Shown: one piece after another, positions 16,864-37,753 of the stretch | How the letters are laid out: the number at the start of each line of letters is the position of its first letter | Numbering within the stretch: position 1 is the stretch's first letter | From: Lachnospiraceae bacterium | Lineage (GTDB): Bacteria > Bacillota > Clostridia > Lachnospirales > Lachnospiraceae | Length of the DNA: 64,000 nucleotides | Direction: 5' to 3' | NCBI GenBank assembly: GCA_017463225.1 | Contig: JAFTPO010000056.1 | Span: 1-64,000 of the forward strand | Notes under the pieces: generated by a model | Seen by the model: the letters and a program-made list of their open reading frames with translations, nothing else | What the model was told of the DNA's origin: nothing | Database searches by the model: none | Position numbers and translations under genes: made by a program

Positions 16864-16891
16864 AAGAGGTGAAGATTTCTCTTCACCTCTT
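16864..16891 (-). terminator. Terminator of the type IV pilus operon
   Basis: A perfect 12-bp stem (16864-16875 with 16880-16891) with a 4-base loop is followed on the minus strand by TTTTC. It lies 9 bases after the stop of the 1976-aa gene, the last gene of the pilus locus. Confidence 0.88.
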
Positions 16892-16900
16892 GGATTTGTT

Positions 16901-19900
16901 TTAGGTTAAGTTGAATAGATGTTCTTTACGCTCTATCTTAATTCTCTTATATGTTGGTGTACTACTCTCTGTATCATATACAGCTATTACAATATATGTA
17001 TACTTGCCACCATACTTGTTAAAGTATTCATCCTTGAGATAGAGTTTAGTTCTATTCATAGTGTCCAAATCACCGTCTCCGTCAATATCATATTGCTCAG
17101 TTACAGGTATAGGCTTGTTATTGGTATCAAGCACAAGCTTTCCATCCTTGTCAACCTGATATTCCACATTAAGATCACCATCATATCTAAATACATCTCT
17201 TACCGTACCCTTAGTTACGTTCTTGTCTGTCCAATCTGCAATTAAAATATGATTCTCTAAATCCTTATCATCATATGCATCTGATTCATCATCGATGTAA
17301 TCTAAGTCAAAGTAAATCTGTACCTTCTTAATCTCTGCATCTTCATCCAGTCTAGCTAAGAAGCTAAAATCAAGATACTCACAGTCTTCTTCAACCTTAG
17401 TCACGTACATTCCGTTAACATTCTTGATAATATTATTCTCTTCAGTCTGATAATCATATACATAGATGTCTGGCTGAGCTATACTCTTCTTAACTGAGTT
17501 ACAGATAATATTAATATAGAGTCTTCTCTCATCATTATTATCCTTACCACATCCTGTAACATTTGTATGTCCAGCACCACAGTAGTTGAAATTCTTGTAT
17601 GTATAGATGAAATAACTATCCATACCATCGTTAGGTGAAGCTGCATATACAGAAGAACCTTTCTTATCTCCAGTTCCTCCACCCATAGAATACCATACTG
17701 TAACATCATCATTCTCAATATCTACAGCATAAGCCTGAGCATGAGTGAATGACACATTAAGCTGGTCTGCAAGTGTGAATGGATAAAGAGTTACTACTCC
17801 CTCGTTTGTACGACTGGCCTTATCGGCTCCATATGCTCCACTTGCTTTGCCTGATAAATATGTTTGATCATCTCTAGCATATATAGCTGCAATTGACCAC
17901 TCTAAATCTGCATATATATATGGCATAGCATTCTCATGTGAACCACCAGTATTCTGAATTACTGCTGAAGTGTCAGTATAAGCAACATCAGAAAGATACA
18001 ATCCAGGAAGTCCTTCACTTAACAACGCATTTGTTTCACTCAACCAATTCATATACTTGGCAGAACCTTGGCTAGGACTATTTGCTATAGAAATATCTGT
18101 CATAAAATACTTCTCAGGATCAGTTGACTTATAAGGTACATAGTAACTAGCTGTAAGATTATCAGTCTTAGATTTATCTATCTCCATATTGTATCTGTCC
18201 ATAGCAGCATACTTCTTAATCATATTAGTAAGATAAACTGAGCCTGCATCATCAAATCTAGTAAGAGTGTCATGGAACATAAGAACCTGACCATCATTCT
18301 TCATATAATCCTCTAAGTCAGCTAAAGCACGTGCTGCTGGAAGTGGCTTGCCATCTTTATCAGTAACAACTGTTGAAGCAGTTACATCAGTTATATCAAC
18401 CGATGTTACTTCTCTCTGAGTAATAATATAATTATCTACATCAAAGTTAAATTTACCACTTGCATCTGTTGTTACAGTAAATGTCTCATTAATAGCATTA
18501 TTATCTGATGCTATTGTAACATCCATAGTAATATCCTTCATAGCAACTAACTTAGTATAGTCATAATCTATGTAAAAATAATACTCGTTTGGCCATACCT
18601 CATAAGCTGTTGGCTCATATAAAACACCACTAAACGAAACATTACCATAAGGATCTAATATCTTGTCAGATAATTTATGTTCTGACTTAACAGGTTGATT
18701 ACTTACGTTAAATCCATTCCATGGTTCCTTAGCATTCTTATAAAGTGCTATATCTGCTCCTGCAACATTCTTACCAATTGAGAATTCATACTTCGCATCG
18801 ATAACTTGATTATTATTTACAAATACAGCATTACCTTTGCTATCCTTAAAATTACTAAGTGTAACCTTTAGTGAATTAGCAATATAAGTATCTGTCACAA
18901 TCTCAGAATTATGCTTAACACTAAATTCTCCTTCTGACTTTGTTAAAATAAAATCATCATTAGAAAAATCGTCTGCAGCTCCGATTACTATCATATCAAA
19001 TCCAGTATCTTTATCAAGTAACCACTCACTTCCGCTAAGATATCGAGAATACTTCTTATACTGATTATTAGCTAGTATTTCTTTATCTTTTAATTTAACA
19101 TACTCCTGATAGAGCGCATTAAGATTCTCACCATCTTTTGTAATATACCAATTCTCTTTATTAGTATATTTACCATTATCAATAGAATAATAATCCCAAT
19201 AATGTCTTGTCACAAGTAATCTATCAATCTCCTTACCATGGAAAGAGTCAACACCTAATTCGTCTCTCATGTGTATAAGAGCATTTCTAAGATCAATCTC
19301 TGCATCTATAGTAGACTTCGTATAGCTTGCCTCGGCCTTCTGCGCCTCTGTAAGAGTATTTAACTCTAACTTATACTCATCAATATACTGATAATCAACA
19401 AAAGCTGCATTAAAATCATCTTCTGTGTAGTATATAAGTGAAGTAAGCTCTTTATACTCATCTAAAGCTTCATCTCTAAGTGTTTCATAATTTACATCAT
19501 AAACCATCTTAAGCTTAGCTTCCGGCTCAGCTTTCGCGTAAGCATCATACTCCTCAGTTTTCTCTTCGTAAGGATTATTTGCTGTAAGGGTTGCCTTTTC
19601 TGTATCGGACAACTTACTGAAATCATATGCATTAGCAACATCTGTACTCATCTGTACAAATTCACTTCTCATCATAATTTCAATATCAAAATCATATTTG
19701 TCTCTTACTTCATCTGCAAGATTAAGATCCCAATTATCAGCACCTACAATGTTTTTCTCTGATACTTCCATTGTACTGTCATACTTAACTATACCAAACT
19801 CATGTTCATGTACACCCAGATATATCTTACCTGCATTACCCTGATATGATAATCCATTCTCATGATCAATCATTCTACCATCGTACAATGCTACATAACT

Positions 19901-22831
19901 TGTTCTTCCACCGCTCTCTGAACTTGGATTAAACTCAAGTCTTTCATAGGCCTGCTGACATATAGTACAGAAGTAAAGTGAGTTTTTACCCTGTGCAGTC
20001 TCACCAGCGTCTGCATTACGCTTACCTGCTCCATTATATGTTCCCGGCATAATCTGAAGTATCTTAACCTTCTGCTTTGAAGAAGCAGTATTTCCAATAT
20101 AGCTTATTCCGGTTGTGCTTGCCTCTAATCCAGTTGGATTAGCAACAACAAGTTTCCAATATACCGGACCATAGAAGTTATCACTTGCTACGAAATCCAA
20201 TTTATTCTTATCACCTGTAGCAACAACCTCACTACCCTCAAATACGCTATTTCCATTATCATCAACATAAAGCTTTACAGTATAATTTGTAGCTCCTGCA
20301 ACTTTATATTTAAAGCTCATTGTCTTGTTAGTAATAATAGAGGAATCGTCATACATATTGTACGTTGCAGGCATCTCAGTAAGAGTAACCTTAGGTCTCT
20401 TAACGTTATTATTATATAAATCATTAAGTTCTCCTGCCTGAGCATCTGCAAATACAGTAACAAATCCTGTTAACGTATCACCATAATCTCCACCATTATT
20501 CTCTACGCTTTGAACCTGTGTTTGATCAAAATTCCAAAGTACGTTCGACTTATTTGAAGAACCACAGTAAGCCATAAACTTACACATATTACTGTCTGGG
20601 TCTATAGAATTCTGATTGTACTTTAATTCTTTAACGGCAGAATATGCCTCACTAGCTTCCTTACTGAAAACAACTGGCATACCCTTATCAACATACTCCT
20701 GAAGCTGAGTAAGCTTTGTAAGGGTTATATCATTACCATTCAATAAAGTGAAACTCGCCTCTTTAGTTCCATCACCATCAATATCAACATAAGCTGAAGG
20801 AACATCACCCACTACAGTACCACTTGCCTGTGCAAGTGCATTTAAATCTGTCTGTATCAATTCTCCAGAGTGAGAATACATAACATAAATAGGCATCTTT
20901 GATAAATCATTAGGATTCTTTAACAAGTTATTCAATGTCAATGATGCTGAATTCTTAGCTATAAGACCGTACGCACCGTAGTCTCCTGCTTTCTTAAGTG
21001 CAGATGTATTACCACCGATATATATCAAATCGTATGTACCAAATACATCTTCCTTAGTAGAAGCAAACTGCTCTGAAGACATCTGTACCAATGTTATCTG
21101 GTCTGTAGTAAGATTAAATGCTGCAGCTATCTTTGCCTTTGAAAGCTCCCATGCATAGTATTCTGTACCATCTAAAAGTTCTTCCTTTGTCTGTCCATTA
21201 ACAACGTCTGAAGGAATTGTATAGTAATTCTTATTCTTTGCTGCTAATGCTTCATCAATAGGATAACATGGCTGAATCTCAAGCACTGTAAATTTACTTG
21301 ATGAGCTCTTTGGACCTCCTATACCTCTAAATGCAGAAGCATTAATCAAGTCAGCAATAACCTTTGCTGTTGAAGAACTCTTGCTACCTGCGATGATATC
21401 AAACTCAGTCCTATTAGTAACCATAATATTCTCATACTTTTCCTGACCGGTAGTTGTAGCTACCATATAGAAAATCTCAGAGAAATTTGTCGCCTGCTGG
21501 TCTCCAACATCAACAGAACCACCTGATGCCGGACCTGACGCAGTAACAGTAGTCATTACTGATGAATATACCATATGGATATTTCCATACATAGCTGCTG
21601 CTAACTGATTATAATCATCTGAACTAATGGCAGCGCCTGCGCAATTAGCCTCAATAATAACCATATCATACTTATCTAAGCTATGCTTAGATATATCAGC
21701 AAGCTGAATCTCTGTTACCTTCATATAATCCGGTCTAACATTATTTGATTTTGAATTATATCCAGACTGATATATTAAAGCATTGTTAGTCTTAATATCA
21801 TATACATCGCCTTCAACATCAGTTCCTGTCACATACTTAAGTCCTGTTACAGGATTACCAAAATCACCCATAACCTCATCAGCCATAGGAGTTGTAGTAC
21901 CATTGGTTATGATAAGCATCTCTGCCATCTTCTTGGCCGACTGTGGTGTAGTACCCTGCTCAGTAGAATCTGTAGGGGATGCTATATCAGTTCCAACATC
22001 TGACCAATTTACTGACTTCTTCTTACCATTCATAGTAAGATACATAGAACCATCCTGATGGGCGAAGAAGGTTGAAAGCTCCTGCTTATCCTTCCAATTG
22101 AAGGTATAGTAATATCTACCATATACTTCAAACATATCGTTTGCTAACTTTGTAGTAGTAATATTTGTAGTTGAGTCATCAACTCCACCATTTCCACCAG
22201 AATTACTTATATCACTAATAACAAGCGGCTTATAATCACCAACAGCATAAGTGTGAAGAATATTATATAATTCCTCATCTAAATCATTACCCTTACCAAA
22301 AGGACTTGCTGTGTCATTATACAGATAGATAAAATCTGCTTTTGAAACAACCGCTAAGATATTATTATAGTCTGTCTTATCTTCCTTCTTAGCAGCAGCA
22401 AGTACTTCTGCTGCAGTATAATGCTCATAAGAGATAGCATCAATTTCAGGATTCATAATTGCATCTATAATTTTATCCTTGCCTTCTGCATCCTTAATAG
22501 TATATGAATCTTTTGTAGCATTACCATTTACTACATAGCTCTCGAAATCACCATCCTCAACCATAGCCTTTAAACTGGATGGGGAGCCTGAAGTAATCTC
22601 AACTACTCTGTAAATATGGTCGCCATTCTCTCTTACATTGTAAGAGTTCTCGATAATATTATCGATATTGGTATTTGTATCAGCGGTTGCTGTTACAAGT
22701 GCTGCATCATCTGTAAGATAACCCTCCTTGTTATCATTACCTGCCAGAGAGAAGGATACTACAGTAACAGCCAAAGCCATAACAAGCATTACTGCAAGAG
22801 CAGAAATTGTTATTTTTATATTTCTTTTCAC
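16901..22831 (-). CDS. Giant secreted protein of the pilus locus, PilY1-like role proposed
   Basis: The 1976-aa protein has a Sec-type N-terminus (hydrophobic about residues 8-31, no pilin cleavage site) and no sortase motif or C-terminal anchor. It looks like the Lachnospiraceae DUF5057 type, from memory. Rossmann-like segments recur: strands ending VVEIT (about 75), VTEIQL (about 372), VLEIQP (about 517) and ILQIMPG (about 922), plus YDMVIIEAN, YDLIYIGGN and FDMIVIGAAD. Calcium-type loops include DIDGDGTKE (about 680), DDNGNSVFEGSE (about 855) and DIDGDGDLD (about 1915). A CxxC pair (about 960) and four Cys near 1800 may be metal or disulfide sites. GTG start with GGAGG 10 bases upstream. 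The position after the minor pilins suggests a tip or adhesin role; no function is proven. Confidence 0.7.
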   Translation of the reverse strand: MKRNIKITISALAVMLVMALAVTVVSFSLAGNDNKEGYLTDDAALVTATADTNTNIDNIIENSYNVRENGDHIYRVVEITSGSPSSLKAMVEDGDFESYVVNGNATKDSYTIKDAEGKDKIIDAIMNPEIDAISYEHYTAAEVLAAAKKEDKTDYNNILAVVSKADFIYLYNDTASPFGKGNDLDEELYNILHTYAVGDYKPLVISDISNSGGNGGVDDSTTNITTTKLANDMFEVYGRYYYTFNWKDKQELSTFFAHQDGSMYLTMNGKKKSVNWSDVGTDIASPTDSTEQGTTPQSAKKMAEMLIITNGTTTPMADEVMGDFGNPVTGLKYVTGTDVEGDVYDIKTNNALIYQSGYNSKSNNVRPDYMKVTEIQLADISKHSLDKYDMVIIEANCAGAAISSDDYNQLAAAMYGNIHMVYSSVMTTVTASGPASGGSVDVGDQQATNFSEIFYMVATTTGQEKYENIMVTNRTEFDIIAGSKSSSTAKVIADLINASAFRGIGGPKSSSSKFTVLEIQPCYPIDEALAAKNKNYYTIPSDVVNGQTKEELLDGTEYYAWELSKAKIAAAFNLTTDQITLVQMSSEQFASTKEDVFGTYDLIYIGGNTSALKKAGDYGAYGLIAKNSASLTLNNLLKNPNDLSKMPIYVMYSHSGELIQTDLNALAQASGTVVGDVPSAYVDIDGDGTKEASFTLLNGNDITLTKLTQLQEYVDKGMPVVFSKEASEAYSAVKELKYNQNSIDPDSNMCKFMAYCGSSNKSNVLWNFDQTQVQSVENNGGDYGDTLTGFVTVFADAQAGELNDLYNNNVKRPKVTLTEMPATYNMYDDSSIITNKTMSFKYKVAGATNYTVKLYVDDNGNSVFEGSEVVATGDKNKLDFVASDNFYGPVYWKLVVANPTGLEASTTGISYIGNTASSKQKVKILQIMPGTYNGAGKRNADAGETAQGKNSLYFCTICQQAYERLEFNPSSESGGRTSYVALYDGRMIDHENGLSYQGNAGKIYLGVHEHEFGIVKYDSTMEVSEKNIVGADNWDLNLADEVRDKYDFDIEIMMRSEFVQMSTDVANAYDFSKLSDTEKATLTANNPYEEKTEEYDAYAKAEPEAKLKMVYDVNYETLRDEALDEYKELTSLIYYTEDDFNAAFVDYQYIDEYKLELNTLTEAQKAEASYTKSTIDAEIDLRNALIHMRDELGVDSFHGKEIDRLLVTRHYWDYYSIDNGKYTNKENWYITKDGENLNALYQEYVKLKDKEILANNQYKKYSRYLSGSEWLLDKDTGFDMIVIGAADDFSNDDFILTKSEGEFSVKHNSEIVTDTYIANSLKVTLSNFKDSKGNAVFVNNNQVIDAKYEFSIGKNVAGADIALYKNAKEPWNGFNVSNQPVKSEHKLSDKILDPYGNVSFSGVLYEPTAYEVWPNEYYFYIDYDYTKLVAMKDITMDVTIASDNNAINETFTVTTDASGKFNFDVDNYIITQREVTSVDITDVTASTVVTDKDGKPLPAARALADLEDYMKNDGQVLMFHDTLTRFDDAGSVYLTNMIKKYAAMDRYNMEIDKSKTDNLTASYYVPYKSTDPEKYFMTDISIANSPSQGSAKYMNWLSETNALLSEGLPGLYLSDVAYTDTSAVIQNTGGSHENAMPYIYADLEWSIAAIYARDDQTYLSGKASGAYGADKASRTNEGVVTLYPFTLADQLNVSFTHAQAYAVDIENDDVTVWYSMGGGTGDKKGSSVYAASPNDGMDSYFIYTYKNFNYCGAGHTNVTGCGKDNNDERRLYINIICNSVKKSIAQPDIYVYDYQTEENNIIKNVNGMYVTKVEEDCEYLDFSFLARLDEDAEIKKVQIYFDLDYIDDESDAYDDKDLENHILIADWTDKNVTKGTVRDVFRYDGDLNVEYQVDKDGKLVLDTNNKPIPVTEQYDIDGDGDLDTMNRTKLYLKDEYFNKYGGKYTYIVIAVYDTESSTPTYKRIKIERKEHLFNLT

Positions 22832-22846
22832 TTTGCTTTTACCTCC

Positions 22847-23770
22847 TTAATCTGCTTTTGGCATGAAAACATAAGAGTTTCTTGCACTTACCATACCATT
22901 TGTTGTGTATGTCATATTCTTATCATCAAACTGGAATTCTATTCCAATAGAGCCATTTGGGGCATCAACCACAGCTGTACAAGCTGCAATATCAGCTGAT
23001 GATGAACCTGAAGTAGTAACATAGCTAAATCCATTATTATAAATACATGATTCCTTTGAACCTGCTACAGCAGGATTAATCATATCATTTAAATCTGTCA
23101 TAAAGCTATATTTCTTCTCATAGTACATACAATTCTTATCGAAAGTATAGATATTAATCATATTATCATACTTATCATAAAGTTTAGCTCCACTAGCTGA
23201 AGCTCCATTTTCTTTGATAGTTACACTTCCTCCAAAAAGATTATCTGCTATAGTCCACTGTGTTGGACCAGCTGTAATATCCGGAGCATATGAAGCATCT
23301 ATTGGAGCTGCTGTAAGAACTATAAGCTTCTTAATGTAGAATGTCTTGGTTCCATCAAAGTTACTAAAGAACTTTACATTACTTCCATCTCCAGCAACGC
23401 CGTCAGTAGTTGTTATTCCATAGACTGTTGGATGTGCAAGTATATCATCCTTCATCTTTTGATCCTTAACATATACTACTATATTAGGTGTTGTCCCTAC
23501 ATCCTTACCTGGCTCATCAAAATCGTACTCTGATGAAGACTCATAGCCTATAAGAACAACCTCCTTAGCCTGCATAACAGAATCTGTTACCTGATTGTAA
23601 GTAGTCTGTGCAGAGCTATGCACCTGAATCTCTGCCTTAGCCTTCTTATGAGTTAAAACACTTGATCCCATTAGAGAGCCAACTGCTGTCATAAGAAACG
23701 CAAGAACAGCCATAGCAATTATCAACTCTACAAGAGTGAAACCGCTATTATTCTTTTTAATATTTTTCAC
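22847..23770 (-). CDS. Type IV minor pilin, PilW-like position
   Basis: The 307-aa protein begins with a class III prepilin leader: MKNIKKNNSG then FTLVELIIAMAVLAFLM, with Gly before the cleavage site and Glu at mature position 5. A soluble domain of about 270 residues follows; I recognise no other motif. GTG start with GGGGGAG upstream. It lies 13 bases after the smaller minor pilin gene and 15 before the giant gene. It is probably a low-abundance pseudopilin that primes assembly. Confidence 0.85.
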   Translation of the reverse strand: MKNIKKNNSGFTLVELIIAMAVLAFLMTAVGSLMGSSVLTHKKAKAEIQVHSSAQTTYNQVTDSVMQAKEVVLIGYESSSEYDFDEPGKDVGTTPNIVVYVKDQKMKDDILAHPTVYGITTTDGVAGDGSNVKFFSNFDGTKTFYIKKLIVLTAAPIDASYAPDITAGPTQWTIADNLFGGSVTIKENGASASGAKLYDKYDNMINIYTFDKNCMYYEKKYSFMTDLNDMINPAVAGSKESCIYNNGFSYVTTSGSSSADIAACTAVVDAPNGSIGIEFQFDDKNMTYTTNGMVSARNSYVFMPKAD

Positions 23771-23783
23771 AGTTCACTCCCCC

Positions 23784-24371
23784 TTATTTTGATATTACGC
23801 TACCGTTTTTATTAACGTTTACAGTTGCAATACTACTTCCATTATCTCTATAAAACTTATATGTACCTACTCCTAGCTTACATGTACCATCCTTACCATA
23901 ATAGATAAGAGCTTCATAACTAGAGTCATCTATCTTTTTCTCAGCTCCACCTATAGGTGAATATGTAACATATACATAGCTTGATAAACTAGTTCCTTTT
24001 CCTTTATTAAGGTTGTTATCCTTCTCGTAGGTAGCATCTGGTTCATATACTCCATTCTTTACTATTACCTTCTGAATATAGCATTTTGAACCATCATCAT
24101 AAATTCTTAAACCAAAGCTAAGATTTTGATCATCCACGTCGTTTACATCGCCATCGCCATCAAAGTCATAAGCTTTGCCTTTAGTAGTGCTATGCAAATC
24201 CTTAACAGCAGACTCGAAGCTCATAGAAGCTTCTTTAGCCTTTGCTGTCTGGATTGTGTTAACTGTTATAACTGCTGCTGCAGTCATAACAGCTATAATA
24301 GCTATTACGATAATCATCTCAACTAATGAGTAACCATCGTTGTTTAGTTTTTTCATTCTTCTCTTCATCAT
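23784..24371 (-). CDS. Type IV minor pilin with a calcium-type loop
   Basis: The protein has a prepilin leader ending NNDG followed by YSLVEMIIVIAIIAVMTAA (Tyr instead of Phe at mature position 1, Glu5 present). At about residues 67-80 it carries DFDGDGDVNDVDD, which fits the Dx[DN]xDGxxNxxD loop of EF-hand and dockerin modules. I chose the ATG at 24371, 5 bases after AGAGG, over the in-frame GTG at 24377. Its start is close to the end of the 1071-aa gene, suggesting coupled translation. Confidence 0.85.
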   Translation of the reverse strand: MMKRRMKKLNNDGYSLVEMIIVIAIIAVMTAAAVITVNTIQTAKAKEASMSFESAVKDLHSTTKGKAYDFDGDGDVNDVDDQNLSFGLRIYDDGSKCYIQKVIVKNGVYEPDATYEKDNNLNKGKGTSLSSYVYVTYSPIGGAEKKIDDSSYEALIYYGKDGTCKLGVGTYKFYRDNGSSIATVNVNKNGSVISK

Positions 24372-24379
24372 AGGCACCT

Positions 24380-27300
24380 CTATTCTACATTCTTCATCCA
24401 GTTGTTGAATCTACAAACATCTGAATAATCAATGTTGTCAATTGTCTTTGCCTGATTTGAAGCATTGGCATCTCCAGGAGATGCAACAGGTTTATTTGTA
24501 TTGTCTACTTCATATCCTTTGAAAAGACTAAGTACTAACTCCGCATTAGAAGTACCAAGAAGCTGACACTCATTTAATATTGTTTGACATATAGCTGCGT
24601 TGGCATTCATAGTTGCAAGGTTCTCAGTGATATATACCTTACCACCTGATATAATAAGACCCTCAAAGCTAGTTACATTAGAATTAAATTTAACATCACC
24701 TTTTGTAACTACTAATCCTCTTACTGCTCCCTGATCCTTATCTCTTGCCTTAATCTCAACATCTCCATAGGACACCCATACTGAATATCCTGAGCTTAAA
24801 TCTAATACCTTAGGACCATTATCGGAACCAGAAAGATTTGGTATTATACTTGTGTCATCAACAATCTTATCTACATTAAGGAATTTATTAATAGGTGTTA
24901 TAGATGCATCTCCATAATTCACATCATCAACCATTTTCTGAATATATTCAATCTCTGTAGCGTTCTTTAACGCATCCGGACCTGTTGTCTCATAGTGACC
25001 TAAATTCCACTTAACAAGATCATACTCAATCTCTAAATCATCTGATAACAAATATGCCTGTGGATACAATGAACTATCAGCCTGCATCTCAGAAGTAGTG
25101 AGGCCATTGCCATTAGCATATACGTCAAATGAGAAATTATAACCTGGTTCTGAACTGAACAATTTTTCTAACTCTGCATTAGTCCACTTATCAGATTTCT
25201 TTATAGTAAACTGCGTATTCTCCTTAGTAGTTATGGCTCCACTAGAATATATGAACGCATTAGGAGTTATTGGATATGGGTTTAAGTCAGTTGGTTCTTG
25301 CTTCTTTGGTAATATTATATCACCAGGCTCAAAATTATGCTCCTCGAAATCAAAGATATCTACAAGATAATCTGTATAAAGTTCAATTTCTGTATTACTA
25401 CTCTGCTTAAGCTGTTCATTCTTCTTTATCTCTGCATCATAGTCTACTATAAATGCTGAAGCATAGTATTGAGCAGATGGATATAAATCCTTAAAGTTAG
25501 CCGCACCGCTCTCACCTACAGCCTCTAACATCATATTATAAGCTGTTTCAAAATCATAGTAATAGTACTTTTTACCGGATATCTCCTGCATAACACATGG
25601 AATCTTATAATCCTTAAATACAGTTTCTGGGAAATACTTGTCGAAAAGATATCCTCCCTGAAGTTTTACATGTAATTCTGCCTCAAAGTATCCAGCAAAA
25701 TTCTTCTTTGCTGCATCTGTATAAACAGGTGTTGGGATACCTGAATACATAACAGGGATGTAAGCAAGCTGAGATGTCTTCATAGATATAGACTCTCCAG
25801 TCTTGTAGTCCCTTAAGAATACAGTACCCTCCTCTTCATCATGATCCACATCATCATCTTCAGGATCAAGTGGATCGCCACCCTTTGGAAGATATGTATA
25901 TGTCTCTGATATTACAGTATGCTTATCCTCTGTAGTAGTTCCATTAGAATTAGCTGTTGTAGTAACTTCCTCTTCCGTAAACGCATGTTTTCCAGATAAC
26001 TCTATGTAAGAACGTCCGGCAAGATATATTACATCTGCATTTGCAAGATCTAGAGTAGACTTCTGACCATTAATTATAATAGCACTACTATTATAATGGC
26101 CTCTGTTCTCCCATACAGTCTCTGCATTTTCACCCTGACCCTTCACATAAGAAAACTGGAAATTCTCTTTATCTACAGTAGGCATGAACACCCTTTCATC
26201 CTTTTCTGTACTATCTCCATATCCGAAATAGTTTCCTCTTAATTTGAATTCTGAGCCATTAGCATTGAGTTCTGTATCATCCTTAATATATGTATTTGCA
26301 TATAAAACCATAGATGAACCATCATATACATTTACAGTGTCGCCCTCTGTTGTAAGCTCTTCCTTCTTAATACTCTGGCCACCTAATATTATATTATCTG
26401 CCCAGAGCTCAGCTTCGGATGTATTTCTTCCGCTTTTTCCGTAAAGTGAAAATGAACCATTATCCAATACCGCTACAGTACCTGGAACTATAACCATATC
26501 ACCAACGATAGAAAGTGATGATCCATCAACATATATTCCAGAATACATACTGTTATCATTCACACCATCAAACATATAATCAGCTTTGAATTTTCCAGTT
26601 TGACCTGTCGCTAAATCCCCATCATCGTAAGCTGCATTATACATAGTATTATATGCAGCCGATTTAGCATATTTTTTAGATGTTACACTGCCGTGAGTAT
26701 AAACATCTATACTCTCTGAAGTCTTATTACCTTCTTTATCCTCAACTTCATATGTAAGTCCTGAATTATACTTCTTGTCTGAATCCTTAACTATTAACTC
26801 ATCCTTATCATTTACCACATATCTACTCTCATTGTACTTCTTATTATAATAATCCGCAGCTGCGTATACATTACCTGTTACAACAAGAGGAGTTGTAGGC
26901 TGAATAACCTCTATACCCATATCTGCAACCATTGAATAATCAAATATGTTAGCATATTCCTGGTTTGTTGAATTAAATAAAACCGCAAAGTTTGGCTCAC
27001 CAATCTCTATATCAGTTGATATAGTCTGTGTATACGAACCATTAGCTACATTCCTATCATACTCAACAGTTCTTGTTAAGGTTACGTTCTTTATTACAAT
27101 CTTTGTAACCTTACCATTTGTCAATACTTTTTCTACAGATACTCTACTTTTATCTAACTTAACAGAGTCATTTGATATATACTTCTCTAAAGCATTTGCC
27201 AAATCTGTATTACTACCACTAAAGAATGAATTCGCCTGTACATTGTTCATAAAACGATCTGTGAACATCTTCTGTACTTCATCATCATCTAAAGTAATGT

Positions 27301-27595
27301 AACTGTTTGTTATAAAATCGTATCTAACCATATTCTCAACAGTGTAAGTATATGCCTCCTGCATATCCTTAACTGTCTGAGAGCCCACTCCTGCATAAAT
27401 CTCATTCATGGCCTGCTCAACATAGTAGAAGTTATCTCTTGAATTAAGATCCTGCATCTTAAGTCTGTAGGAATAACCTGCAGCCGTAAGCAATGCACCA
27501 ACTATAACTCCCAAAAATGTTAACGCAACTATAACAAGTAATATACTGGAGCCGCGATTATCTAATTTTTTAAATAGCTTTTTAATTTTATTCAA
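24380..27595 (-). CDS. 1071-aa PilX-like pilus protein
   Basis: The N-terminus KLDNRGSSILLVIVALTFLGVIV resembles PilX-type assembly proteins: a short basic leader with Gly before a membrane helix, but without the Glu5 of ordinary pilins. The rest, over 1000 residues, is rich in short strands with many Gly, Asn and Ser (SLSIVGDMVIVPGTVAVLDN; LVVTKGDVKFNSNVTSFEGL), which suggests beta-helix-like stacking. A very acidic stretch lies near residue 580. The TTG start directly abuts the previous stop and has GGGGG 8 bases upstream. PilX proteins are usually below about 300 aa, so the size is unusual. Confidence 0.75.
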   Translation of the reverse strand: MNKIKKLFKKLDNRGSSILLVIVALTFLGVIVGALLTAAGYSYRLKMQDLNSRDNFYYVEQAMNEIYAGVGSQTVKDMQEAYTYTVENMVRYDFITNSYITLDDDEVQKMFTDRFMNNVQANSFFSGSNTDLANALEKYISNDSVKLDKSRVSVEKVLTNGKVTKIVIKNVTLTRTVEYDRNVANGSYTQTISTDIEIGEPNFAVLFNSTNQEYANIFDYSMVADMGIEVIQPTTPLVVTGNVYAAADYYNKKYNESRYVVNDKDELIVKDSDKKYNSGLTYEVEDKEGNKTSESIDVYTHGSVTSKKYAKSAAYNTMYNAAYDDGDLATGQTGKFKADYMFDGVNDNSMYSGIYVDGSSLSIVGDMVIVPGTVAVLDNGSFSLYGKSGRNTSEAELWADNIILGGQSIKKEELTTEGDTVNVYDGSSMVLYANTYIKDDTELNANGSEFKLRGNYFGYGDSTEKDERVFMPTVDKENFQFSYVKGQGENAETVWENRGHYNSSAIIINGQKSTLDLANADVIYLAGRSYIELSGKHAFTEEEVTTTANSNGTTTEDKHTVISETYTYLPKGGDPLDPEDDDVDHDEEEGTVFLRDYKTGESISMKTSQLAYIPVMYSGIPTPVYTDAAKKNFAGYFEAELHVKLQGGYLFDKYFPETVFKDYKIPCVMQEISGKKYYYYDFETAYNMMLEAVGESGAANFKDLYPSAQYYASAFIVDYDAEIKKNEQLKQSSNTEIELYTDYLVDIFDFEEHNFEPGDIILPKKQEPTDLNPYPITPNAFIYSSGAITTKENTQFTIKKSDKWTNAELEKLFSSEPGYNFSFDVYANGNGLTTSEMQADSSLYPQAYLLSDDLEIEYDLVKWNLGHYETTGPDALKNATEIEYIQKMVDDVNYGDASITPINKFLNVDKIVDDTSIIPNLSGSDNGPKVLDLSSGYSVWVSYGDVEIKARDKDQGAVRGLVVTKGDVKFNSNVTSFEGLIISGGKVYITENLATMNANAAICQTILNECQLLGTSNAELVLSLFKGYEVDNTNKPVASPGDANASNQAKTIDNIDYSDVCRFNNWMKNVE

Positions 27596-29335
27596 CTATT
27601 TTTCCCCCTTTGCTCCAGATAATCTTACTGTGTTAGTATTTCCTGAAACAGGTTCCATAATTACAGTAACAGATTTAAGTCTGTCATCAGTTCTTGTATC
27701 TTCATTTATAGACTTAATATAAGCCGGATTGAAACCAACCTTAGTTGTACCCTTTGACTTAACATCAGATACTACTGACTCATTCGCTGCCTTGTTATAT
27801 GATTCCTCACCATCAAAAATACTTGTATCACAGTAGAACTGTATTGCCTGTTTTGTTTTATCTTCATCTTTTACCTTAGAATTATAGACAATTGTACTCT
27901 TATCACTATCTTTAATTGCATTTGTATCTAAGTTAGTGTAAATTGTAGTATTCTCGTCTAAAACACTAGAATTTGCTTTTACAATATGTATATTCACAGC
28001 ATTATCCTTCTTAAATGCCTGATACAAGCTTGCATCTGCTTTCACACTAGCTGAAGGTGCTGTCTTTGTATACACATAACTATCCTTATTATATACATCA
28101 ACATTATTCGCAACATTCTGAGCATCGTTATATGGTTTGTAAAGATATAGCTTTACTCCCTCAACATAATTGTCTATAACGAGATAATCCTCATCGGCAT
28201 AGGTTACATTATAATTCTTGCCAGATGCAGTGTTAGTAACAACGTTAGAAGATATAAACGGCTGATATTCAAAGTATATGTCAGGACACTTCTCTGTATC
28301 AAATCTCTGAGAAAAAACATTGTATTCTAACACAACTTTAAACTTACCATTTTCATCAATACCTTCTCCTGTAAGGTCATTACCTTCCTTATCCTGCAAG
28401 AAAAATGTACTAATATAATATACATCCATCTTTACTATATAATAGTATTTACCACTGGCATTATCCTTTAGCTTATCTACATAAAGCTTTGTTACCTTCT
28501 TAACTGGGTCATCGCCAACACAATCTTCTATAACACTAGCATTTTCATTGTGGTTTATAGCCTGATCCCACGAATCATAATCCAGCTGTTTTAATGTTTC
28601 AAGCTGTTCAGCAAATATAGCCTCCTCAGCCTGACTGTCAAACATTGCACCCTTGCCATTAATCATTGCCACTGTATCAAGGTCAAGATTCTGCATATTA
28701 CCCAAGTTAATCTCATTAGGGTTGCCTGTGTAGTAGGCAGTTTCACATACTATCTTATTTATGTTACCATCAGCATCATACTGAACTATACTACCCTCGT
28801 TAGTCAGCGTATATCCACTTGGCAATGCGCTCAAATAACTATTATCCAGATTATATGCTATAGTATATCCTGCGTCTGAAGCTGTAGAAGCTCCGGCATT
28901 AGTCTGGCCTTTAACCTGAGCAGATAAATCATCAACCTTTACTATCTTGTTATATAATGTATTTCTTGCGCCAATTTCAATATTCTCAGTCTTATAAGTA
29001 TTTACATTATACGTTACTTTTCCTATAGGATTACCTGCTGTATCAACAAGTTCACATTCAACAGCATCTGTCTTTGAACTATAAGGAAGCCCTGTATCTA
29101 ATGAATTCTGAACGTATATATCATTAAGTTTATCATCATCAACATCATTAGGTACTACCTGAGCCTCCTCTAAGGCATATATAGCTTCCTCATTAATATA
29201 CTGCTGCTCCTTTGCAAGACGGCTGGTTCTCATTGTCTGTGCAAACTGTTTCATAACAGGTGTCAAAAGCAATGTTAATATGGCTATGGCGATAACAATT
29301 TCTATTAAACTGAAACCTTTATTATTTTTTGCCAT
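27596..29335 (-). CDS. Type IV minor pilin, PilV-like, 579 aa
   Basis: A prepilin leader MAKNNKG precedes FSLIEIVIAIAILTLLLTP with Glu at mature position 5. The following soluble part of about 540 residues is far larger than a normal minor pilin. I see many Lys, Asp and Asn residues but no known enzymatic motif. It follows pilO by 16 bases with a GAGAGG site, and its stop codon abuts the TTG of the PilX-like gene. It probably forms part of the pilus tip complex with its three neighbours; that is inference. Confidence 0.83.
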   Translation of the reverse strand: MAKNNKGFSLIEIVIAIAILTLLLTPVMKQFAQTMRTSRLAKEQQYINEEAIYALEEAQVVPNDVDDDKLNDIYVQNSLDTGLPYSSKTDAVECELVDTAGNPIGKVTYNVNTYKTENIEIGARNTLYNKIVKVDDLSAQVKGQTNAGASTASDAGYTIAYNLDNSYLSALPSGYTLTNEGSIVQYDADGNINKIVCETAYYTGNPNEINLGNMQNLDLDTVAMINGKGAMFDSQAEEAIFAEQLETLKQLDYDSWDQAINHNENASVIEDCVGDDPVKKVTKLYVDKLKDNASGKYYYIVKMDVYYISTFFLQDKEGNDLTGEGIDENGKFKVVLEYNVFSQRFDTEKCPDIYFEYQPFISSNVVTNTASGKNYNVTYADEDYLVIDNYVEGVKLYLYKPYNDAQNVANNVDVYNKDSYVYTKTAPSASVKADASLYQAFKKDNAVNIHIVKANSSVLDENTTIYTNLDTNAIKDSDKSTIVYNSKVKDEDKTKQAIQFYCDTSIFDGEESYNKAANESVVSDVKSKGTTKVGFNPAYIKSINEDTRTDDRLKSVTVIMEPVSGNTNTVRLSGAKGEK

Positions 29336-29351
29336 AAATCCTCATCCTCTC

Positions 29352-30437
29352 TTAGTATACCTTAACTACACCTGTCTTGGTTCCTAAATCAAATCTTGGT
29401 GAAGTTGTATCATCACCATCAACCTTTACATAAACTGGAACATCTGTTGAATTCTCAACGCTAAACTTAATTCCGTTTGAGTCATTAGCATCAACTCTCT
29501 CATTAGACTGAACGTATACAGTAAGCTCCTTATCAGCAAGCTCCATCTGGTATGAATCTGAACCGATAGCATAAGTTACCATATTCTTTCCGTCAACTTC
29601 CTCAACAGTAACCTTAACATCAACTACTGAATTATCAGCACTTGTTACATAAGTATCACTGCCACCTGCTGAAAGAATAATACCATCTGTAGCATCGTTG
29701 TTAGCATTGTTAAGTGCAACTAAGATATCATAATCTCCTGCTATAGATGCTCCGTTATCAGCATCATGTGATGATGAAGTATTATCTGCTGCATCATCTC
29801 CACCATGGAAGATATTATAAACACCGTTATCAACATTAACTGATACTGTATCTGCTACTCTATCCTCTCCAGATACTGAGTATGCATTAACAAGGAATGA
29901 ACCTGAATAAGTCTCATCAGTAGAATTATATGCAATATTAAATGAACTAATATTCATTCTGTACTTATAATTCATAATATAATCAACAAAATCCTTAAGT
30001 CCCTCATAAGAGCCCTCGTAAGTAATAGGAAACTGTGCTGTATAGCACTGATATCCTGCTTCCTGTCCATAAGCAGGAGCCAATGAATAATAAAGCATTT
30101 CTCTACCTAATCCAACACTCTGAACATCAAACTGAAGATTTCCCTTATCCTTCTCTACACCCTTGAAGAACATAACTGAAATCTCCTGATCTAATGTTGC
30201 TGGGAAATAAGAAACAACTTCATCAAAATACTCTCTATTTGACTCTATCTCTGCAAGATATTCTTCTCTGTGGGCATCCTGAGCTTTAAGATCATCATAT
30301 TTTGCCTGAAGTTCATCTATCTCTGTCTGTAACTGCTCTTTCTCCTCAACATTTGGCTTATATACATACATAAATGTACCGCCCAATATTAAGATTGTTG
30401 CTAAAACAAGTAATACTTTTATATTGCTCTGTGTCAT
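29352..30437 (-). CDS. pilO: PilO-like inner-membrane pilus assembly protein with C-terminal extension
   Basis: PilO proteins form the membrane alignment complex with PilM and PilN. Here an N-terminal membrane helix (about 7-26) is followed by a coiled coil (KEQLQTEIDELQAKYDDLKAQ) and the ferredoxin-like PilO core, with FPITYEGSYEGLKDFVDYI typical of the family. About 160 extra residues after residue 200 are Asp-, Asn- and Val-rich and not part of usual PilO (about 200 aa). AGGAGG site upstream; 19 bases after pilMN. Confidence 0.85.
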   Translation of the reverse strand: MTQSNIKVLLVLATILILGGTFMYVYKPNVEEKEQLQTEIDELQAKYDDLKAQDAHREEYLAEIESNREYFDEVVSYFPATLDQEISVMFFKGVEKDKGNLQFDVQSVGLGREMLYYSLAPAYGQEAGYQCYTAQFPITYEGSYEGLKDFVDYIMNYKYRMNISSFNIAYNSTDETYSGSFLVNAYSVSGEDRVADTVSVNVDNGVYNIFHGGDDAADNTSSSHDADNGASIAGDYDILVALNNANNDATDGIILSAGGSDTYVTSADNSVVDVKVTVEEVDGKNMVTYAIGSDSYQMELADKELTVYVQSNERVDANDSNGIKFSVENSTDVPVYVKVDGDDTTSPRFDLGTKTGVVKVY

Positions 30438-30456: not shown

Positions 30457-32061
30457 TTACTCTGCTACTGTTTCTGACTCTGCATCAACTGCCGGCATAA
30501 CATAAGTAGCAGTTACTGTAAAGTTGTACTGATATGTATCTGTAATCTCATCATATGACTCTGATATACTTGCCACATAGGCATCACTAATACATTCCAT
30601 AGTCTTAAGCTGCATAATAAACTCTGCAATAGCATCATAACTTGTAGAAACAGCTGGAATGCTAATACCAGCATCTGAAGAACTAAAGCTCTTTACTATT
30701 ACACTTGTAGGAATCTTATTCTCAAGCTCAGTAATGAACTCTCTAGCATTCTCATTTAAGTGATATGTTGTACCAACCATAGTTGTCACATCAAGAACCT
30801 GCGCTCTGGATGCCTCTAAATCCATTACAATCTGCTCTATATCGCTAAGTCTTGCAATATCAGCCTCAAGCTGTGCCTTCTTGTCCTTAGCCTCCTGAAC
30901 CTGCTTAATGGATACGAAAGCAAGTGCTGCTGCTGCGATAGCTGCAATAACTGTTACTGCAACAAATGGAGCTACACTTCCGCCACCACTTGATGACTTA
31001 GTCTTACCTGATGCATCCTGAAGTTCGAAGCCCATAGGAGCAAAAGCAGCTCCGATAGGAGTTACAAGATATACTGGGTTATAAACTTTAAGGTCAATAC
31101 TTGGATCAAACTTAATATTATATAAGCTATCCATAATTCTTGTACTTACATTAAGCTGAATCTTGAAGAGTCCATCGATACCTCTGATAAGAGCTCCATC
31201 ACCTGTAAGGAATACATCCTCGATTGGCTTGTCAGGATTCTTAGAAGCATAGAAGTCCATAACTCTTCCTATATTATTAATAAGATATCTAAATGCTCCT
31301 GTAGTCTCATTGTCATCGAAATCTACAGTTATAAGTCTGTCATTCTGAAGCAATGTCATAGCAGTTGTAGCATCTACACCCTTCTCGTCCATTACTACAT
31401 TTACTACAGAGTTGGTACCATATGGAACTGTTCTCTGAAGAAGAAGATTGTCACCCTGTACAATATTAAGTACTGTTGACTCACTTCCTAACTGGATTAC
31501 CATAGTTGTTGCATTTGCATTAGTCTGAGTCTTGATTAACTGAAGCATAGCATTACCGATGTAATCAAGGTCGATTACATTAAGTCCAGCCATCTCAGCT
31601 AAGTCATAGTATGACTTAACCATATGCTGTGGAGCTGCTACAGCAAGAACTCTAATCTGCTTGTTGTTCTCCTCGTCTGTTACTGTCTCAAGAACAGTAT
31701 GAGAAACCACGTAATCCTCTATATTTACAGGGAAATACTCTGATGAGTTCGCATTGATGATTCCTCTGATTTTATTCTCTTTTACGTAAGGTATAACTAC
31801 CTCTCTGTTAACAATCTTAGCTGAAGATAATACGAACACAGCGTTCTTATTAGTAATTCCTCTAGCCATAAGATTCTCCTTGATTGCAGCTGCAATCTTC
31901 TCAGGCTCCTTGATAGCTCCATCCTCAAATGAATCTTCCGGAGTCTCAAAAATGATAACATTGTGAATGTTAGTCTGCTTCTTAGCAGAAGCTGTTAATT
32001 CAATAATTGTAATACTTTCATTTGTGATATCAATTGATAACACCTTATTGCTCTTTGCCAT
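30457..32061 (-). CDS. pilMN: Fused PilM-PilN type IV pilus assembly protein
   Basis: Residues 1 to about 345 form an actin-like PilM domain (KVLSIDITNESITIIEL at the start, FLTGDGALIRGIDGLF near 270). A Ser-Gly linker then leads to a membrane helix (about 362-384) and a PilN-like periplasm-side domain with a coiled coil and FITELENKIPTSVIVKSFS. PilM and PilN are separate proteins in Gram-negative bacteria; a fused form is known in some Clostridia. GGGAGG site upstream of the ATG. Confidence 0.9.
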   Translation of the reverse strand: MAKSNKVLSIDITNESITIIELTASAKKQTNIHNVIIFETPEDSFEDGAIKEPEKIAAAIKENLMARGITNKNAVFVLSSAKIVNREVVIPYVKENKIRGIINANSSEYFPVNIEDYVVSHTVLETVTDEENNKQIRVLAVAAPQHMVKSYYDLAEMAGLNVIDLDYIGNAMLQLIKTQTNANATTMVIQLGSESTVLNIVQGDNLLLQRTVPYGTNSVVNVVMDEKGVDATTAMTLLQNDRLITVDFDDNETTGAFRYLINNIGRVMDFYASKNPDKPIEDVFLTGDGALIRGIDGLFKIQLNVSTRIMDSLYNIKFDPSIDLKVYNPVYLVTPIGAAFAPMGFELQDASGKTKSSSGGGSVAPFVAVTVIAAIAAAALAFVSIKQVQEAKDKKAQLEADIARLSDIEQIVMDLEASRAQVLDVTTMVGTTYHLNENAREFITELENKIPTSVIVKSFSSSDAGISIPAVSTSYDAIAEFIMQLKTMECISDAYVASISESYDEITDTYQYNFTVTATYVMPAVDAESETVAE

Positions 32062-32109: not shown

Positions 32110-32868
32110 CTAATAGGTAGCCCACATACTTAGGTACCAGCTCACGAGCTGCTCACCCCATATCATTGCTATAAATACGCCCGCCGACAAGTACGGACCA
32201 AACGCCAACTCTCGGCCGACCTTCTTTATAGCCATTAAAGCCAGATGTACAATAGATGCTATGATACATCCCAGCAAAAATGCTACAATAACAAGCTGCC
32301 AGCCCAATAGCAAGCCGGTTGTTGCCATAAGTTTAATGTCGCCGCCTCCCATCGCCTTACCTTTAGTTACCAAGAACAGTAAGTATAAGAAACCGCTGAC
32401 CGCAAACAAACCGATTACGTACTGATGCCAATTACTAAAATCAGTAATAAGTCTAATCAGTCCTAAAATAAATATAAAAATGTTGAATCCCACGGGGATC
32501 TCTTTGGTGCGCCAATCTATTACACTTAGCGCAAGTAAGGCAGAAGCACACAGGCAGTAAAGAATCCCTTCTATACTAATACCGCATGCGAGGTACACTA
32601 TCACATATAGAATTCCATTAGCAGCCTCTACAATAGGATACTGTATGGTTATGTGACTCTTGCATTGCCTGCACTTTCCACCTAAAAATATGTAACTAAA
32701 TAGCGGTATAAGCTCATACCATTTAAGGATATGACCGCAACTCATACAATGTGACCTAGTAAGGGTTACGCTTTCCTTTAAAGGAATTCTTAATATAAGC
32801 ACATTTAAGAAGCTTCCTATAACAATTCCATATAAACAAAAAAATATACTAAACACTATATCTAGCAT
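32110..32868 (-). CDS. pilD: Prepilin peptidase (A24)
   Basis: This membrane aspartic protease cleaves prepilin leaders and can N-methylate the new terminus. The 252-aa protein has the N-terminal zinc-type cysteines in CMSCGHILKWYELIPLFSY and CRQCKSH, and the catalytic aspartates in IDWRTKEIP and GGGDIKLMA. About seven further hydrophobic segments follow. It sits directly after pilA, whose product is its main substrate. GC of the gene looks slightly higher than that of its neighbours. Confidence 0.95.
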   Translation of the reverse strand: MLDIVFSIFFCLYGIVIGSFLNVLILRIPLKESVTLTRSHCMSCGHILKWYELIPLFSYIFLGGKCRQCKSHITIQYPIVEAANGILYVIVYLACGISIEGILYCLCASALLALSVIDWRTKEIPVGFNIFIFILGLIRLITDFSNWHQYVIGLFAVSGFLYLLFLVTKGKAMGGGDIKLMATTGLLLGWQLVIVAFLLGCIIASIVHLALMAIKKVGRELAFGPYLSAGVFIAMIWGEQLVSWYLSMWATY

Positions 32869-32960: not shown

Positions 32961-33467
32961 TTACTGATACTGCTCACAAAGTTCTGGAGCAACCTCATAC
33001 TTGATAGCCTTGCTATCAGTTGACATACCAACCTTAACAGTACCACCAGGTGTAATCTCAACAACAAATGCCTTTGCATCAAGCTTCTTATACTTAATTT
33101 TTGGAGTCTTCTCGCCGATGTTAGCACCGATCTCAGTCTTTGCTGCAGCATCACCTGAACCAGATAAAGCAGCACCGCCTGAACCTAAAAGAGTTATACC
33201 GCCACCGCCTGAAGTCTCAGTATCAGGTGAAACAACGATAGTAGAACCCTTTCCTGAGTTAGTAAGTAACTCGTAAGTCTTCTCATTAGCCATAGCAGTC
33301 TCTACAGCTGTCTTGATTGTCTTACATGATGATACATCGTTAGAGATTCTTGACTTATCAATATATCTGATAAGCGCTGGTGCGATAGCACCTGCAAGTA
33401 TAGCCATAATAGCTATAACGATAATAAGCTCTACGAGTGAGAAACCTTTGTTGTTCATTTTCTTCAT
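32961..33467 (-). CDS. pilA: Major type IV pilin
   Basis: The 168-aa protein has a leader MKKMNNKG followed by FSLVELIIVIAIMAILAGA, with Glu at mature position 5 and the long hydrophobic N-terminal helix. Two Cys (about 43 and 164) could form a disulfide linking helix and C-terminus. The middle has a Gly/Ser-rich stretch (SGGGGITLLGSGGAALSGSG), probably a flexible surface loop. AAGGAG site 9 bases before the ATG. It has the hairpin features of a highly expressed gene on both sides, and is the best candidate for the main fibre subunit by size and position. Confidence 0.92.
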   Translation of the reverse strand: MKKMNNKGFSLVELIIVIAIMAILAGAIAPALIRYIDKSRISNDVSSCKTIKTAVETAMANEKTYELLTNSGKGSTIVVSPDTETSGGGGITLLGSGGAALSGSGDAAAKTEIGANIGEKTPKIKYKKLDAKAFVVEITPGGTVKVGMSTDSKAIKYEVAPELCEQYQ

Positions 33468-33571: not shown

Positions 33572-34774
33572 TTAATAATTATCGATAGCGTCGTACATAT
33601 TAAGCATAGGTGAGTAAATAGCAAGTACTATACCACCAACAACAACACCCATTACTACGATGATAAGTGGCTCCATCATAGCTGTAAGAGCATCAGTTGC
33701 ATCATTAACCTCCATCTCATAGTAATCTGCAACCTTATCAACCATTTCTTCAATATTACCAGTCTCCTCACCAATCTTAATCATCTGAGGAAGCATAGCT
33801 GGAAATATCTCCATATCTCTAATAGGCTTTGAAAGAGGCACACCCTTTGCAACCTGAACCTTAGCATCCATTAAACCTTCTCTAATGATACGATTATTCA
33901 TCATCTTAGCAACCTGCTCAACTGCATCTATAAGAGGTATACCCGCTGCAAGAAGTGTACTAAGAGTTCTAGAGAATGTAGCCGCTGCTGACTTGATAGT
34001 AAGATTACCAAAAACAGGCGCCTTCATAGCTATCTTAGCATAAAGATATGAACCACCATCAGTCTTGCCAAACGCCTTAAGAGCAAATACTATAGCAGCC
34101 ACTATAGCTATACATATGTACCACTTATGCTGTAAGAACTCACTAAATGCAACCAACATTCTTGTAAATATTGGAAGCTCTGAGCCTAAATCTGAGAACA
34201 TCTGCTCAAACTGTGGTATTACTGCTACAAGAAGAACTATTACCACTATAATAACAATTATAAGAATTACACAAGGGTATGTCATAGCTCCCTTAACCTT
34301 AGACTTTAACTTATTTGAATTCTCAAAGTGAGTTGTAAGTCTTTCAAAAGCTGTCTCAAGATTACCAGACATCTCACCAGCAGCTACCATGTTGATAAGT
34401 ATAGGTGGGAATATCTTAGGATTAATCTTAAATGCATCAGCAAGGGAACCACCCTTCTGTACATAAGCCTGAGCTTCTCTTAATCCTCTCTGTAATGTCT
34501 TATTCTCCATCTGTTCTGACATCATCTCAAGAGCTGATATGACAGTAACACCGGCATTAAGAACTGCAACGAACTGCTTACAGAAAACTGCAAGATCCTT
34601 GTCCTTAACCTTCTTACCACCGCTTTTCTTGCCAGCGCCCTGTTCCTTAACATCCTGGACTATATAGCCCTCGGACTTGAGTTTTTCTTTTGCCTTGTCC
34701 TCATTAACGGCTTCAACCACACCCTTCTTGGTTTTACCGCTTTTGTCCATGACCTTGTAATTATACTGTGCCAT
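33572..34774 (-). CDS. pilC: Type IV pilus platform protein PilC/GspF family
   Basis: PilC is the inner-membrane platform that couples the motor ATPases to pilin insertion. The 400-aa protein has the N-terminal YNYKVMDKSGKTKKGVVEA segment, two GspF domains (about 70-195 and 270-395) with paired FCKQFVAVLNAGVTVISALE and FSRTLSTLLAAGIPLIDAVE motifs, and three membrane helices. GGAGGAG site. It follows pilT by 142 bases, a gap with a possible internal promoter. Confidence 0.96.
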   Translation of the reverse strand: MAQYNYKVMDKSGKTKKGVVEAVNEDKAKEKLKSEGYIVQDVKEQGAGKKSGGKKVKDKDLAVFCKQFVAVLNAGVTVISALEMMSEQMENKTLQRGLREAQAYVQKGGSLADAFKINPKIFPPILINMVAAGEMSGNLETAFERLTTHFENSNKLKSKVKGAMTYPCVILIIVIIVVIVLLVAVIPQFEQMFSDLGSELPIFTRMLVAFSEFLQHKWYICIAIVAAIVFALKAFGKTDGGSYLYAKIAMKAPVFGNLTIKSAAATFSRTLSTLLAAGIPLIDAVEQVAKMMNNRIIREGLMDAKVQVAKGVPLSKPIRDMEIFPAMLPQMIKIGEETGNIEEMVDKVADYYEMEVNDATDALTAMMEPLIIVVMGVVVGGIVLAIYSPMLNMYDAIDNY

Positions 34775-37723: not shown

Positions 37724-37753
37724 AGTCAAATACCTCTCTACATAATTTTAGTT

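Follow-up and report, generated by a model that had tools for sequence, protein, structure and literature searches.

A giant DUF5057 protein encoded behind four minor pilins: a candidate type IV pilus tip module in Lachnospiraceae

Can a monoderm bacterium build its own version of the PilY1/minor-pilin tip that crowns type IV pili of two-membrane bacteria? The question is raised by five genes at the end of the pil locus of a Lachnospiraceae bacterium (contig JAFTPO010000056.1, assembly GCA_017463225.1; the window, to which all positions refer, is the 64,000-nt stretch of this contig that was analysed). The large non-pilin PilC/PilY1 was said in 2023 to be absent in monoderms (PMC9934059, in the part of the text available), and late-stage components are likewise described as missing there in the accessible part of PMC6916266. 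Our answer, to which we assign a probability of about 0.62, is that the five genes form a monoderm counterpart of this tip, in which an unrelated giant protein of 1976 amino acids (aa) would dock by a C-terminal strand on X, a 1071-aa prepilin lacking the glutamate at position 5 (Glu5), by analogy with PilY1. The four tip subunits and the giant probably form an adhesive pilus cap, a kind described hitherto in two-membrane bacteria; tip location and docking are what we infer.

The operon upstream of the five genes runs in the order pilB-pilT-pilC-pilA-pilD-pilMN-pilO, and the genes expected of a type IVa pilus operon (pilB, pilC, pilM/N/O, a prepilin peptidase and a pilin) were found together, with PilO scoring below its cut-off (Table 1). 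MshEN occurs once in the genome, inside pilB of this operon. The five genes follow the pil genes on the minus strand with the lengths and coordinates given in an earlier note on this DNA, separated by gaps of 0, 2, 13 and 15 bp (0-16 bp counting from the PilO-like gene). That note had read them in a PilV-PilX-PilW-PilY1 order; the minor-pilin/PilY1-like layout in a monoderm holds, whereas the count of minor pilins rises to four and the order becomes I(V)-K(X)-H-J(W)-giant, because a GspH-like 197-aa pilin sits between X and the 307-aa pilin.

N_methyl (PF07963) scores above its cut-off in the 579-, 197- and 307-aa proteins (30.1 bits in the 579-aa protein) and does not match X, which at full length is without any Pfam match. 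The 579-aa prepilin has a class III leader with Glu5 present (KNNKG/FSLIE), and the leader of X reads DNRG/SSILLV. NCBIfam matches of the 579-aa protein (ComGE, E 6.8e-9), the 197-aa protein (gspH, E 6e-6) and the 307-aa protein (an ambiguous set) all stay below their cut-offs and are driven by the N-terminus. Across relatives' loci from public genomes, with leader sites set by our own rule, Glu5 was found in 0/68 X proteins, and in 54/56, 63/64 and 66/67 of the proteins occupying the 579-, 197- and 307-aa slots, respectively. Four prepilins of which exactly one is without Glu5, as in an H-I-J-K complex, are thus present in the window and in its relatives, and the available part of PMC10191384 describes the minor-pilin tip complex as capped by a Glu5-less subunit. 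Among 46 X relatives, all have a glycine ahead of the hydrophobic stretch and none a glutamate at +5. PilX_N (PF14341) is the commonest Pfam match of these N-termini (13/46 at E<=1, best 7.4e-6), the families ranked after it reaching 5/46; the N-terminus of the window's own X, searched at E<=1, has no PilX_N match. The earlier description of the 1071-aa protein as PilX-like finds support in the missing Glu5 and in its relatives.

The giant is, as far as sequence tests reach, a non-pilin of the DUF5057 family that is unrelated to PilY1. DUF5057 (PF16480) matches aa 700-1073 with 51.4 bits against a cut-off of 27.9, as the sole Pfam match above cut-off, and was found in 30/30 scanned relatives, with five other families in 1-3/30 each. 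The T4P_PilY1 beta-propeller (PF05567) was detected neither in the window's giant (E<=1) nor in the 30 relatives (E<=0.01), and it was found in 0/150 genomes of the family, though no positive control matched in that last search. The giant had thus rightly been called unlike PilY1, and its former standing as a sequence without a family gives way to membership in a Pfam entry, one to which no function is assigned and which takes in only parts of two adjoining domains. Most of 79 giant sequences share three landmarks: an L-E-I-V-P-like opening in the N-terminal part, a V-L-E-x-Q/E-P opening midway and, towards the end, a G-A-G-H-like site. When the giants are sliced at these landmarks, D2 proves homologous to D3 (hhalign 96.5% in a local and 97.7% in another run) and D1 to D2 (89.7-90.5%), with immunoglobulin (Ig)-like and pil controls at <=2%, barring slices that overlap by design. 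On this division DUF5057 reaches from the end of D2 across an Ig-like stretch into the start of D3. The window's giant has a basic and then hydrophobic N-terminus and is on this ground probably secreted. Full giants span 1190-2847 aa with a variable middle.

No relevant solved structure was returned for the giant by sequence profile (best E 0.33). A ThuA or class I amidotransferase-like fold for D3 was rejected as an assignment and is kept as a lead, the best score being 18.0 bits against a cut-off of 33.4; likeness below cut-off appears in 2/5 D3 pieces (E 0.0036 and 0.011), and hhalign gives 10.9-17.3% with an alignment that took in 6/7 ThuA pieces. The loose calcium-like pattern D-x-[DN]-x-[DNS]-G-x-[FYWL] occurs in 57/79 giants against 6.35 in shuffles, and the window's giant has only DIDGDG, at aa 683 and 1915; the PilY1 calcium motif is Dx(D/N)xDGxxD. 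Two loci (L124 and L142) carry tandem giants behind the minor pilins (1621 and >1653 aa; 1633 and 1661 aa), which are perhaps alternative tips. Another locus (L037) is reduced, with pilB-pilT-pilC followed by a 652-aa giant remnant that has D3 and the tail, and no minor pilins were seen between. Our literature search, with most subscription journals outside it, found no paper on DUF5057 or describing this module.

The giant is closely tied to pil genes. In a family-wide sample of 150 genomes, each from a different genus, 32 had a DUF5057 match and 34 a match to the D3 profile, which together puts giants in 35/150; MshEN was found in 70 (69 above cut-off). Giants occur in 35/70 MshEN-positive and 0/80 MshEN-negative genomes (Fisher p 5.9e-15, phylogenetically uncorrected and for genomes that are not independent, because all come from one family). 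The earlier note had named large proteins in genomes without pil genes as what would overturn its view, and no giant appeared among these 80. MshEN replaced PilM_2 as marker, which was too unspecific (partial-coverage matches in 115/150 genomes and 9/14 controls). A DNA scan of public genomes yielded 256 relatives among 269 pattern matches, and the best 80 loci were analysed: their carriers are mostly Lachnospiraceae, with others in Oceanirhabdus, Fusibacter, Tepidibacter, Desulfosporosinus, Clostridium and Paenibacillus. Culturable, harmless species with the giant include Anaerocolumna aminovalerica (L103), Mobilisporobacter senegalensis (L115) and Lachnotalea glycerini (L094). Among these best 80 of 256, pil genes, called by our own profiles at >25 bits within the fetched stretch, lie near the giant in 73/73 loci uncut by a contig edge and in 2/7 edge loci. 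A second set has pil genes in 28/31 loci; of the remaining three, two sit at contig ends and the third is a paralogue remote from pil genes. The comparison covered a 16-kb neighbour set besides the window. The exact order 579-X-197-307-giant on one strand is kept in 42/54 relatives with >=6 kb upstream, so the arrangement is not due to chance; the order labels are not independent of the order, because several of our profiles were built by gene position, from genomes overlapping the 80 loci. The remaining 12/54 have the H-like gene missing, an extra gene or a gap in open reading frame (ORF) calling, or the giant on the other strand (Paenibacillus). Beyond the family the giant is rare, with 6/196 class genomes (E<=0.001) and 6/299 phylum genomes.

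What could hold such a protein on a pilus is suggested by its last residues. Giants usually end in L-F-x-L-[D/N/T], the window's giant in HLFNLT. Among 107 tails of intact-ended giants, which count some genomes twice, Leu stands at -2 in 95/107, Leu, Met or Ile at -5 in 95/107 and Phe at -4 in 65/107. A strict tail pattern, picked after inspecting the giants, is matched by 55/82 giants and 6/830 other ORFs of the same loci; in the window, 1/47 ORFs matches, namely the giant. The last eight residues of Myxococcus PilY1.3 (LQNVYELP) have been modelled as a strand added to PilX3 (PMC11046646, in the part available), and the accessible part of PMC13190605 reports the same C-terminal strand addition for other PilY1 proteins. 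The tail of the window's giant resembles this modelled strand; by eye, N-V-Y-E-L-P of Myxococcus PilY1.3 is like N-L-F-E-L-N of the giants.

The putative docking partner has better-known kin, as profile comparison indicates that X is homologous to tapirins beyond the pilin helix. A search of 298 phylum genomes with the tapirin model NF051896 (NCBIfam, curated cut-off 600 bits) gave two genomes above cut-off with four tapirin ORFs, labelled by that family model. Compared by hhalign with 58 X proteins, these four reach 97.6%, and 93.5% with the pilin helices removed; two 897-900-aa proteins of the tapirins' genus in the same slot reach 99.5% and 98.9% to X, with pil controls at <=0.7%. The tapirins (L233, L234) lie directly behind pilM, pilN, pilO and an I-like pilin, which is the slot of X, and share with X a Glu5-less class III type N-terminus. 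A bridging comparison failed, the X-like proteins of L235-L238 being 100% to X and 1.4% to tapirin cores. Membership by score was rejected, since neither the window's X (E<=1) nor 10 full-length relatives matched NF051896. That model touches 13/46 X N-termini (best 1.3e-4), and the link rests on the profile comparison because the apparently unrelated SAG1386/EF1546 family touches them almost as often (12/46). A count of X profile matches in the phylum (70/298 genomes) was set aside, most of the listed matches being to the pilin helix only. The available parts of PMC9933333 and PMC10267330 present tapirins as cellulose-binding or attachment proteins; they have 642-660 aa against 1071 in X, and cellulose binding by X would be by analogy only. 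By this homology, one of the five proteins has relatives on which biochemical work exists. For X itself, sequence profiles returned pilin N-termini (E 0.03) and an antifreeze beta-helix (E 0.5) as leads only. In the tapirin genus, a 657-667-aa protein with a signal-like N-terminus and no match to the giant lies behind an X-like gene (L231:4763-6736, L232:3948-5951) and may be another non-pilin tip protein.

The slot behind the minor pilins appears to be open to exchange. Among 35 giant-less MshEN-positive genomes, 11 loci were examined, chosen non-randomly for PilM near MshEN or a pil-like contig and including one of only 5.2 kb (L188) that, with L189, looks like another pilus type. In four of the 11 (L180, L181, L182, L184) the slot holds an 802-1024-aa protein with an L-E-I/V-V-P opening and D1 homology of 97.9%; three of these end in the strict tail, the fourth (L180) in a looser one.

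In the mechanism that we propose, the 579-, 197- and 307-aa pilins and X would assemble in the membrane as a starter complex of the H-I-J-K type, with X placed on top because it is without Glu5. The giant would be exported by Sec, and its C-terminal tail would add a beta-strand to a minor pilin, likeliest X, as modelled for Myxococcus PilY1 on PilX. Extension of PilA beneath X would push it, together with the giant, across the cell wall and out of the cell, where the large domains of the tapirin-like X, of the giant and of the J-slot pilin of some relatives may bind a surface, perhaps plant polysaccharide, and PilT retraction would pull. The giant would stand in for PilY1 functionally, with no sequence kinship as far as tested.

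Several observations weigh against this proposal. Half of the MshEN-positive genomes (35/70) have no detected giant, so the giant is not needed for pili as such and the module is not obligatory, and 7/11 of the giant-less loci examined showed no comparable protein in the slot. More distant members have an imperfect tail (for example L091, L104, L107, L122, L125, L127 and L143) and often lack the strict pattern, and two Paenibacillus loci, L125 and L190, encode the giant on the strand opposite to the pil genes. D1 and D3 compared directly give insignificant values (7.5% and 0%). Four secreted-looking large ORFs away from pil (L062, L195-L197) have D3-like domains and no tail, and the X relatives of L235-L238 are not followed by a giant.

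The D3-like domains away from pil also speak for a different account, in which the giant shares no more than a transcript with the pilus genes and works by itself at the surface, secreted or held in the wall, as an adhesin, a polysaccharide-modifying or a matrix protein; the weak resemblance of D3 to ThuA, a family with an enzyme-type fold, points the same way. We regard this account as unlikely, though worth keeping in sight: giants are confined to MshEN-positive genomes in the family sample, the shorter kin retain both the slot and the D1 domain, and no wall-anchor family was found by Pfam in the window's giant (E<=1) or in 30 giants (E<=0.01). The occurrence of X without a giant in L235-L238 and the tapirin form in L233 and L234, together with the cellulose-binding function given to tapirins in their NCBIfam name and in the parts of the sources cited above, would fit a tip on which X alone is the tapirin-like adhesin, while the giant, instead of forming the outermost adhesin, helps in assembly or stabilisation or has a regulatory part. 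The size of the giants and their variable middle would suit an exposed effector better than a chaperone, and a non-pilin joined to minor pilins is the PilY1 pattern, so that X acting alone seems to us quite improbable. A large Glu5-less subunit also marks GspK, whose model matches 6/46 X N-termini (E<=1, best 1.3e-4), and the block could on this ground encode a short, type II-like pseudopilus, with the giant as the protein to be secreted. However, pilT and pilMN are present, and type II systems cross an outer membrane, which Lachnospiraceae are generally known not to have; we give this explanation very little credence.

The proposed tip cap can be set beside two known systems. With the PilC/PilY1 and FimU/H-PilV/I-PilW/J-PilX/K sets of Neisseria, Pseudomonas and Myxococcus it shares four minor pilins, one of them Glu5-less, followed by a large non-pilin encoded beside them. 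However, the giant here is PF05567-less with DUF5057 and repeated domains, the host is a monoderm, and X is far larger than PilX. The PilA-PilB-PilC tip of Streptococcus sanguinis, as described in the available part of PMC9934059, is alike in its monoderm host, a Glu5-less subunit and large modular pilins, to which the J-slot pilin of L147 with its F5/8 type C domain may be compared; it differs in having three pilins and no non-pilin effector, whereas four pilins and a giant are found here. As a wider conjecture, which we advance tentatively and at somewhat under even odds, many Bacillota type IV pili would have non-pilin tip effectors of a second class with an origin of its own, docked via a short C-terminal strand (about L-F-x-L-D/N) on a Glu5-less pilin of the tapirin/PilX type. 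The tail would then be an address for exchanging unrelated or shrunken proteins, and tapirins would represent the pared-down form, with the pilin acting as adhesin.

The coordinates of the module and the pil genes are collected in Table 1. The hairpin at the operon end has a 12-bp stem and lies ~10 bp beyond the giant's stop codon; the hairpin scan is weak taken alone, because the region scanned contains 11 terminator-like sites where shuffled sequences average 7.2 (standard deviation 2.6). A 435-aa ORF without a Pfam match at E<=0.01 lies immediately upstream of pilB (37843-39150). In relatives, the J slot exceeds 350 aa in 13 loci and reaches 898 aa in L147 (L147:3807-6500), a modular minor pilin whose C-terminal part carries an F5/8 type C (galactose-binding-like) domain (E 5.6e-18), and one sub-group (L093, L120, L123, L140, L146) has an additional 160-177-aa ORF between the J-slot pilin and the giant. 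The C-termini of X proteins carry a conserved N-W-x-K near the end (31/58 by one pattern, nearly invariant in one comparison), which is also present in distant X proteins such as those of L235-L238. A phage origin was considered and dropped, as no relative was found in 26 stretches.

Table 1. Features of the pil locus and its putative tip module in the 64,000-nt window
Feature	Position	Strand	Remarks
Terminator-like hairpin at operon end	16864-16891	minus	
Giant non-pilin, 1976 aa	16901-22831	minus	Hydrophobic N-terminal signal, DUF5057, tail HLFNLT
Minor prepilin, 307 aa	22847-23770	minus	J/PilW slot
Minor prepilin, 197 aa	23784-24377	minus	H/FimU-like, Glu5 present
X, large Glu5-less prepilin, 1071 aa	24380-27595	minus	K/PilX-like, tapirin-related (by profile comparison)
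Minor prepilin 1, 579 aa	27596-29335	minus	I/PilV-like by position and ComGE-like N-terminus
PilO-like gene	29352-30437	minus	PilO match 16.6 bits, E 0.0092, below cut-off of 22
PilM-PilN fusion	30457-32061	minus	105.7 and 30.8 bits, both above cut-offs
PilD prepilin peptidase	32110-32868	minus	Peptidase A24
PilA pilin	32961-33467	minus	N_methyl 36.4 bits
PilC platform	33572-34774	minus	T2SSF 211 bits
PilT-like ATPase, 350 aa	34917-35969	minus	T2SSE 161.7 bits, no MshEN match
PilB extension ATPase	36002-37729	minus	T2SSE and MshEN

Collectively, with a conserved, pil-linked giant in both Lachnospiraceae and other Bacillota, DUF5057 acquires a probable role, and tapirins find a place as tip pilins of the PilX/K type. 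The tail offers a candidate docking peptide for how pili hold tip proteins, one that is directly testable. If a second effector class does exist, PilY1-type tip caps would be a general solution rather than a diderm one. These results bear on abundant bacteria of the gut and rumen, whose attachment is little understood.

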